Below, piece after piece: positions 58,541-60,099 of a stretch of DNA of 64,000 bases (the first letter of the stretch is position 1; each line of letters opens with the position of its first letter). Under the pieces are notes generated by a model. That model had not been told where the DNA came from, did no database searches, and saw only the letters and a program-made list of their open reading frames with translations. Source of the stretch: Charina bottae (lineage: Eukaryota > Chordata > Lepidosauria > Squamata > Charinaidae); contig JALMGJ010000025.1 of NCBI GenBank assembly GCA_023362775.1, positions 6,772,001 through 6,836,000 on the forward strand. Reading direction: 5' to 3'. The position numbers and the translations under genes are program-made.

Positions 58541-58606
58541 GGATGGATGGATGGATGGATGGATAGGTAGATAGGTAGATAGGTAGATAGGTAGATAGGT
58601 AGATAG
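58541..58606. repeat. (GGAT)n and (GTAGATAG)n microsatellite
   Basis: Five GGAT units are followed by about five copies of the 8-base GTAGATAG. Confidence 0.95.
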
Positions 58607-58981
58607 CTACTCTGGTTGGTAACATCTCTGTCCAATTTCATCTAGCCCAAGGGTTGGAAATGGCGGCTCTCGAGCCAGATGCGGCTCTTTGGCCCCTTGA
58701 GTGTGGCTCTTCCGCAGCTGAACTCACCCTCGCCCCTTCCACGCGATTGGATCCCGCCCCCAAACTCTGATGGCCAGCGCTGGAGGAGGGCGATTGATTC
58801 TTCCTCCGCCCTCGGGAGCCTTCCAACTTTCGCCCGAGCCAGGCAGCGCTTCTTCGAGGTCGGCGGGTGGGGAAGTTGTTTGGTCGCCGCCGCCGCAAGC
58901 GCCTCTTCCTCCGCCCGCGTTGCAACGGCCGCCGCCGCCGCCCCCCCGAAGCGCTCACCAGGCAGGCAGGAGAGCGTCGCC

Positions 58982-59155
58982 ATGCCGGGTGCGCTGCGAG
59001 AGGAGACGGCGCAGCTGCTGGGCGACTACCTGCAGCACCGGCTGGGGGACGCGGCGCTGCCCCCCAGCCACACGGCCGAGACGCTGCGGCGGGTGGCCGA
59101 CAAGCTGGAGAGCCGCAAGTGCCTCTTCTTCCTCAACGCCTGCAGCGCGGCGGCC
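58982..59155 (+). pseudogene. BCL2L10: Captured 5' coding fragment of a BCL2L10/NR-13-like gene
   Basis: From the ATG, 58 codons read MPGALREETAQLLGDYLQHR, then a LGDAALPPSHTAETLRR block, then a KLESRKCLFF segment. This resembles the N-terminus of avian NR-13 (BCL2L10), an anti-apoptotic BCL-2 family protein: MPG start, EETA-LL-DY-QHR, AALPPS, LRR, FF. In the family this part holds the BH4-like helix. The similarity ends abruptly after ACSAAA, before BH3 and BH1, with no splice donor at that point. The frame itself stays open from 58679 to 59536. The leader upstream (58780-58981) is GCC-rich and may be captured 5' UTR. Homology is from memory of the family, not from a search. Confidence 0.75.
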
Positions 59156-59784
59156 ATACCAGAGATGGGAAGCGGAAAGGCTGGCAGGGGCTGCAGGAGC
59201 GAGGTGGGGCTGCCCCTTCCGCGGCCGGAGCAGGTGAGGGCTGCGGCGTCCCGTCGCTGCAGGTTCTCCCGCTCTGCTCAGGAGGCACGCCGTCGCTGCG
59301 CCCCTTCGGGGGCAGCCGCATCTTGCCGGCAGTGCACGGAGGCCAGGACCTGGGTCCGGGGTGCCCTTGGGTGGCCTCCCCAGGCGGCCGGTGGTGCTTC
59401 CGGCTTCGAAGGAGACAGACAGAAGACAGGAGGAGACAGAGACAAAATCTCTGTGAAGGGGAGGGAGGAGAAAGGTGGGCGGAGGTGGGGCAGGGGTGGT
59501 GAGTGCCGGCGAGGGAGAGAAGAAGGAAGGCAGTAAGGAGCGGCGGCGGGAGCAGCGAGGATGGAGAAGGTCTTCACGAAGGACCCCGGGGGAGGAGGCG
59601 GGGTGACGCTTCGCTCGCCGCCCGCCTGTCGCGGCTTACTCGGACCCCAGGGGAGGAGGCGGGGCGACGCTTCGGAAAGGCCGGCAGGGGCTGCGGGAGC
59701 GAGGTGGAGAAGCGGCCGCGGGAAGCCCTCCGGGTTCACCCTCCCGCCCCATCAATCCCCCCACCCCGCCGTTCGGCATCCTCT

Positions 59785-59892
59785 CCCCCGCTAACCCGAG
59801 CCCTGCAGCCACCTCCCTGCCGCGCTGGGCCTCGCTCAGCTGCGCGCAGAAGCGCTCCAGGTCCGGCGGCTCGTCCAGCTTCACAGCCCAAA
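59785..59892 (-). other. Possible second captured exon-like piece
   Basis: On the minus strand the frame reads AVKLDEPPDLERFCAQLSEA and then QRGRE, followed by a GT that could be a splice donor (AGGTGGCTG). Amino-acid use looks like real coding sequence, but I do not recognise the protein. It could equally be chance in GC-rich DNA. Confidence 0.3.
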
Positions 59893-59899
59893 CCCCGCC

Positions 59900-60016
59900 C
59901 CCTTCCGCGCGATTGGCTCCTGCCCCCGAACCCCGCCCCCTTCCACGCGATTGGCTCCCGCCCTCAAACCCCACCCCCTTCCACGCGATTGGCCCCCGCC
60001 CGCAAACCCCGCCCCC
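59900..60016 (+). repeat. 38-bp tandem repeats with CCAAT-type motif
   Basis: Three units contain GCGATTGG, the reverse complement being CCAATCGC, with GATTGG starting at 59911, 59949 and 59987, a period of exactly 38. GC-box-like CCCCGCCCC runs lie between them. A lone related unit is at 58745. Such arrays of CCAAT and GC boxes are typical of promoters. Confidence 0.9.
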
Positions 60017-60099
60017 TGGCTCTCGAGCATTTCAAAATGTCCTCGAGCATGTCAAAATGGCTCCCGGCATAAAAATTTTTGCCGACCCCTGATCTAGCC

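Follow-up and report, generated by a model that had tools for sequence, protein, structure and literature searches.

Is the CpG-rich insert near the right end of the window (by which we mean the whole analysed stretch of 64,000 nucleotides from Charina bottae) a transposon that has taken up the start of a BCL2L10 gene, or a remnant of that gene framed by a chance repeat? The initial annotation had placed a hAT-type element at 58648-60091, and direct reading bears out its coordinates, termini and target site duplication (TSD): the 1444 bp start with CAAGGGTTGGAAATGG, end with GCCGACCCCTG, and carry ATCTAGCC on either side. The insertion is complete, of the hAT type and non-autonomous, and its 8-bp TSD is perfect (Table 1). 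Its terminal inverted repeats (TIRs) are short and imperfect, 5' CAAGGGTC-GGAAA against CAGGGGTC-GGCAAA in the reverse complement of the 3' end. The element forms a high-G+C island (69%) in AT-rich surroundings, with a CpG observed/expected ratio of 0.81 versus 0.17 and 0.09 in the 2-kb flanks. Comparison of the window with 54 elements of the family revealed no further copy in it except for a weak 65-bp match, and a search for the origin of the filler at 59165-59704 found no source. A GGAT / AGGTAGAT microsatellite occupies 58541-58606, about 33 bp before the left TSD.

Table 1. Features of the insertion (positions in the window)
Feature	Position	Strand	Evidence
Left TSD ATCTAGCC	58640-58647	.	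Direct reading; 8/8 identical to right copy (locus L001)
5' terminal and subterminal hAT sequence (CAAGGGTTGGAAATGGCGGCTC...; element opens CAAGGGTT... at 58648)	58648-58879	+	Common to fetched copies
Captured BCL2L10 5' end: ~100 bp leader and codons 1-61, ATG at 58982	58880-59164	+	271/285 versus resident gene (L041); protein 85% to Candoia aspera BCL2L10
GC- and purine-rich filler	59165-59704	.	Mostly present at same place in sisters L011 and L012; 35-bp and 33-bp direct repeats inside
Inverted 89-bp remnant of second captured host gene (cluster of uncharacterised snake genes)	59802-59890	-	93% to L073-L075, C110:5.80-5.94 Mb
3' subterminal 38-bp repeats and 3' terminus ...GCCGACCCCTG (60091)	59887-60091	+	Exact 25-mer of commoner 3' end 1468x genome-wide, reversed control 0
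Right TSD ATCTAGCC	60092-60099	.	Direct reading

The assignment of a 58-codon segment of the insert to BCL2L10 was confirmed by protein comparison. With the BCL2L10-like part of a 285-aa open frame as a 68-residue query, the best match was bcl-2-like protein 10 of Candoia aspera (85% identity, E 8.5e-24), and all 15 matches at E<=0.001, from 139 candidates, were squamate members of the Bcl-2 family, 10 of them named bcl-2-like protein 10. The limit of 58 codons did not hold, since the DNA match is longer and includes the leader: element bases 233-517 match the resident gene at 95.1% identity, over a stretch that opens some 100 bp before the ATG and runs through codon 61. Taken alone, the 58-aa segment gave no Bcl-2 match in a Pfam search (the top match was an unrelated DUF, E 0.005) and a weak top match to BCL2-like 10 in a PDB search (E 0.0046); the Bcl-2 profile covers only residues 35-135 of Candoia BCL2L10. 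Three ORFs tested from longer copies of the same lineage matched PF00452 with E 1.4e-14, 1.8e-15 and 1.9e-10, covering 87, 89 and 62 of the 100 profile positions (two ORFs from copies of the longest type, another from a copy with right breakpoint 1784). Both exons of the resident gene were located, exon 1 at C2:16698232-16698639 and exon 2 at C2:16690429-16690557, with 97% (136 residues) and 98% (43 residues) amino acid identity to the gene of the snake C. aspera. As in Pack-TIR and Pack-hAT elements, a fragment of a host gene lies within the TIRs and a parental copy is at hand; the donor could be the resident gene itself, or an ancestor or relative of it.

Other copies with the same termini, for which the initial annotation had proposed a search, are abundant. 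The joint between transposon and BCL2L10 sequence (a 26-mer, up to one mismatch) occurs 385 times (189 + 196) in the 1.80-Gb genome versus zero for the reversed control, which excludes chance for this joint, and the 100 joints listed are spread over 11 contigs. The first 44 bp of the 5' end, in their commoner form and with up to three mismatches allowed, were found 6143 times, and the reversed control again not at all. In a DNA search, the best 40 of 5520 first-look candidates were scored and every one matched; one of the 40 is the window copy. Similarly, the best 150 of 787 candidates in a search with the Candoia BCL2L10 protein all matched; two were the exons of the resident gene. From the other 148 matches come 29 loci (L042-L070), in every one of which element sequence adjoins the gene piece, and further ones of the 148 fall among L001-L040.

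The TSDs and target sites were studied in 71 fetched loci (L001-L072 without the gene), which represent 69 distinct places including that of the window copy, as L055/L071 and L060/L072 are duplicates. Both ends and a TSD matching in at least seven of eight positions were present in 54 of the 71; end pairs were picked by the best TSD match, and an alignment-based placement of the ends agrees. Removal of L026 (a duplicated locus) and L018 (7/8) leaves 52 distinct perfect TSDs of 8 bp, the length typical of hAT elements, and several transposed copies with different TSDs are likewise found in multicopy Pack-TIRs. Among the 52, position 4 is T in all and position 5 is A in 49, with C at position 3 in 42 and G at position 6 in 41. 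The sequence nnnTAnnn is given as the TSD consensus of the Buster family of hAT elements (PMC3517528), and judged by this consensus the target sites of the snake family are Buster-type. The remaining 17 loci lack the combination of both ends and TSD, several because of the limits of the fetched stretches; in L015, L063, L069 and perhaps L064 both ends are present but the TSDs do not match, so some copies are rearranged. Joined flank pairs gave matches across the joint for 12 of the 54 elements. Exact empty sites, also suggested as a check by the initial annotation, were recovered at all five insertions inspected (L042, L046, L020, L007 and L071) as an uninterrupted site with a single copy of the 8 bp. 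The partners are other copies of the repeats that the elements had entered; that of L007 is 73% alike, with one difference within the 8 bp, and the 4.4-kb element of L071 (the same place as L055) lies inside a tandem array, noted at L055:5-2645, whose units are about 79 bp long.

The gene segments of the 54 elements begin at nearly the same point. The left breakpoint is at gene base 1401-1402 in 51 of them (1434 in L017, 1411 in L051 and L070), while the right ends fall into four nested classes, at 1681-1683 (n=35), 1864-1906 (n=5, three of them at 1883), 1784 (n=4) and 1631 (n=10). An apparent splice donor GT directly follows gene base 1905, so that the aligned stretch ends before the exon 1 donor or, in L044, right at it. 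A tree built from the gene and 53 copies supports the 1883-type copies as a clade (C, 97/94) and, less firmly, the 1631-type copies as another (F, 93/86); the tree leaves the remaining subfamilies unresolved, and the order of trimming is therefore unproven. The common left breakpoint and the nested classes of right ends point to a single capture, which would have been followed by 3' losses with replacement, that is, by trimming and refilling.

Two other origins were weighed against this one. The first is a local remnant or segmental duplication of BCL2L10 with a fortuitous TSD. One such duplication is the pair L025/L026, which share their left flank and lie 52 kb apart on C201; L044 and L045, with one TSD in common and 310 kb apart on C110, may be another such duplication. 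Against the 52 distinct perfect TSDs, the exact empty sites at the five insertions inspected and the 385 joints, the 100 listed ones on 11 contigs, we give this origin practically no credence, and the copies and empty sites rule it out for the feature in question; together with the identity of the captured segment, they uphold the reading of the insert as a hAT-type element with a captured BCL2L10 5' end. Several independent captures by related elements would agree with the four classes of right breakpoints and with the separate grouping of subfamilies C and F, but the left breakpoint is equal in 51 of 54 elements, the transposon sequence before it is shared and the right ends are nested, which makes such repeated captures very improbable. 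We have high confidence in the following reading: the insert belongs, as a single copy, to a non-autonomous hAT family of high copy number (Pack-hAT) with Buster-type target sites, in which one capture of BCL2L10 was followed by cut-and-paste spread, stepwise 3' loss, the gain of further host pieces and amplification of subfamilies.

For this history, ends, TSDs, exact empty sites, dispersed copies, the parental gene and the common left and nested right breakpoints were read directly, and from them we infer the following sequence of events. One ancestral element would have gained about 480 bp of the host BCL2L10, comprising the leader and some 128 codons and not reaching past the exon 1 splice donor, and the chimera would have spread as a cut-and-paste element, with duplication of 8 bp at the target. 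Elements descended from it would then have shed the 3' part of the BCL2L10 piece stepwise and gained other host pieces, the resulting subfamilies each being amplified. Both capture and refilling may have proceeded via error-prone gap repair or template switching, and mobilization presumably relied on a transposase encoded elsewhere.

As in Pack-TIRs, the elements carry no transposase of their own in the frames scanned: Pfam transposase domains were absent from six scanned reading frames of the 1444-bp window element and from five frames of the 4.4-kb L071/L072. A genome search for PF05699 gave 86 matches, 17 of them in intact 656-aa frames, and no transposase with the ends of the family was identified among the copies examined. 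The 1216 bp downstream of one 656-aa copy contain no matching terminus, and around the five PF05699 places on C1 below 102.9 Mb no listed exact 3' end lies within 90 kb, a comparison that a differing subterminal sequence would escape. The 17 intact frames (e.g., C210:3008784-3008984) constitute a hAT transposase family that is probably young, since most of their scores are nearly equal. On the 3' side of one 656-aa copy (L077) we observed a ATTTAATGTT-type minisatellite.

Outside CpG sites, 18 short copies of the BCL2L10-bearing family diverge from their subfamily consensus by a median of 0.6%, and 8 of 16 long copies by 1.0%; the consensus of the short subfamily, to which the window copy belongs, departs from the resident gene at 2 of 189 non-CpG and 3 of 94 CpG positions. 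No elements younger than those of 4.4 kb were seen: in their first 1700 bp L071 and L053 do not differ, L054 has two differences from them and L072 11-13; L071 and L072 have ends and TSDs. In the captured codons of 53 copies compared with their subfamily consensus, 84 nonsynonymous and 25 synonymous changes were counted at non-CpG positions and 80 and 57 at CpG positions, versus expected ratios of 1.96 and 1.84, which depend on a transition weight of our choosing; these counts indicate no purifying selection. Relative to other C/G transitions, those at CpG sites are more frequent by factors of 13.1 and 11.3, the pattern of CpG decay expected of germline-methylated DNA.

These data also bear on whether the captured piece is functional, either as a Bcl-2-like peptide or as a mobile promoter or CpG island that helps the host or the element. 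The initial annotation had suggested that copies, if dispersed, could spread CpG islands or an N-terminal peptide. Dispersed they are, and the CpG ratio of 0.81, the leader of the gene within the captured stretch and the open frames of the three longer copies tested, which retain much of the Bcl-2 profile, would suit a function, as would the precedent of bat Helitrons, whose captured NUBPL promoter is reported to drive host transcripts (PMC4778049). However, the codons of the 53 copies bear no sign of selection, which speaks against a protein-coding role; the 11-13-fold excess of CpG transitions lends no support to unmethylated mobile CpG islands; and the aligned gene stretch ends at or before the exon 1 splice donor. 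We therefore consider a function of the captured piece unlikely, and the suggested spread of functional CpG islands or of an N-terminal peptide is not supported.

Gene-capturing DNA transposons are, according to the initial annotation, rarely described in vertebrates. This needs qualification, as 370 Pack-TIRs (208 of them hAT) have been described in 100 animal genomes, though only four are multicopy, three of these from frogs and the fourth from alligators (Tan et al. 2021, PMC8277862). The snake family resembles the animal Pack-hATs of that report in its hAT ends, its internal host-gene fragment with a parental copy and its distinct TSDs; one of them, in frog, is hAT-N8_XT with a captured CAPSL 5' UTR at three places (PMC8277862). 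It differs from the Pack-TIRs described there in the 385 occurrences of its joint, in nested breakpoints and in further host pieces within one family. In bats, captured promoters of 15 genes have been amplified by Helitrons to 4,690 copies (PMC4778049), so high copy numbers of captured gene starts in vertebrates are known for Helitrons. HelibatN3, with its NUBPL promoter, is likewise a vertebrate mobile element amplifying a promoter-proximal host piece with N-terminal codons; in contrast to the snake element, it is a Helitron with another transposition mechanism and its piece includes a splice donor (PMC4778049), whereas the BCL2L10 piece does not extend beyond one. The Buster-family hAT MITE Mar of Drosophila is also non-autonomous with the 8-bp TSD consensus nnnTAnnn; the account that describes it as an internal deletion of an autonomous element mentions there no captured host gene (PMC3517528). 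The Pack-TYPE elements of plants are described as non-autonomous DNA transposons, too, by which coding DNA is captured and shuffled (PMC8903248). Given the animal Pack-TIRs (PMC8277862) and bat Helitron captures (PMC4778049) reported, the snake family belongs to the known Pack-TIR/Pack-hAT kind, with an exceptional copy number. Among cut-and-paste elements it is remarkable for this number, for its youth, for breakpoints that form a readable series and for the presence of more than one host piece in one lineage. A literature search of mostly open-access papers, without preprints, met neither a paper combining BCL2L10, a transposon and a snake nor a high-copy vertebrate Pack-hAT.

The family seems to carry at least two host pieces besides BCL2L10. 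In the eight longer sisters of the window copy that were compared, about 450-500 bp derive from a second host gene, reduced to the 89-bp inverted remnant in the window copy; four snake proteins, all uncharacterised or hypothetical, are related to this gene. Similar genes are clustered at C110:5.80-5.94 Mb, and the exact donor is not fixed, since the sister L011 is 91% identical to both L075 and L073. A further cargo is present at L057:3932-6001, where a second element adjoins the BCL2L10 element with ATCTAGCC between them; its 5' end is the same and its cargo quite different. Bases 344-1728 of this second element are 90% identical to C234:2912555-2913932, where neither element end is present, and this stretch is the probable parent of the cargo; other places, e.g., C1:20710158 at 96%, match the element from base 1. 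By its look the C234 region at 2.91 Mb was considered as DNA of a developmental gene, and none of the 150 listed homeobox matches is nearby.

It is an evenly balanced question for us whether the hAT lineage as a whole is a prolific, still active gene shuffler, in which some 6000 elements with its 5' end would carry many CpG-rich gene starts and regulatory stretches of the host, serially captured, trimmed and re-amplified. Were it so, the lineage would resemble the plant Pack-MULEs, with no vertebrate cut-and-paste parallel in the literature searched: bat Helitrons reach such numbers by a different mechanism, and TIR gene capture in animals is so far described as mostly single-copy (PMC8277862). 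With hundreds of copies, some nearly identical, from one parental gene, and with one common and several nested breakpoints, capture and trimming become directly studiable in a vertebrate, and the family allows a test of whether captured gene starts get transcribed, silenced or co-opted.

Several minor observations concern the cargo and its neighbours. The cluster at C110:5.80-5.94 Mb (MAAPEFSPERLARRLAEAEALL...) is related to the proteins P0016-P0019; among these, P0018 contains a KRAB box, and a SCAN domain is listed for P0019. Another type of amplified element, found at L076 (C1:21718550-21719250) and about a dozen places, also carries part of the second captured gene, mostly in 402-aa open frames whose scores are nearly identical across copies. 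The cargo of L057:3932-6001 is CpG-rich and has AT-rich, regulatory-looking stretches. The young 4.4-kb element L071 contains 116-bp GC-rich tandem repeats at element bases 495-771 and 1826-2568, which in a self-comparison of L055 appear in both orientations. Finally, a 334-bp hAT-like element (CAGGGCTTTCCAAACTTTT..., TSD TCTTAATG) at L062:1618-1951, present also in L053, L054, L055 and L060, is nested in the 1631-type elements and was apparently amplified along with them.
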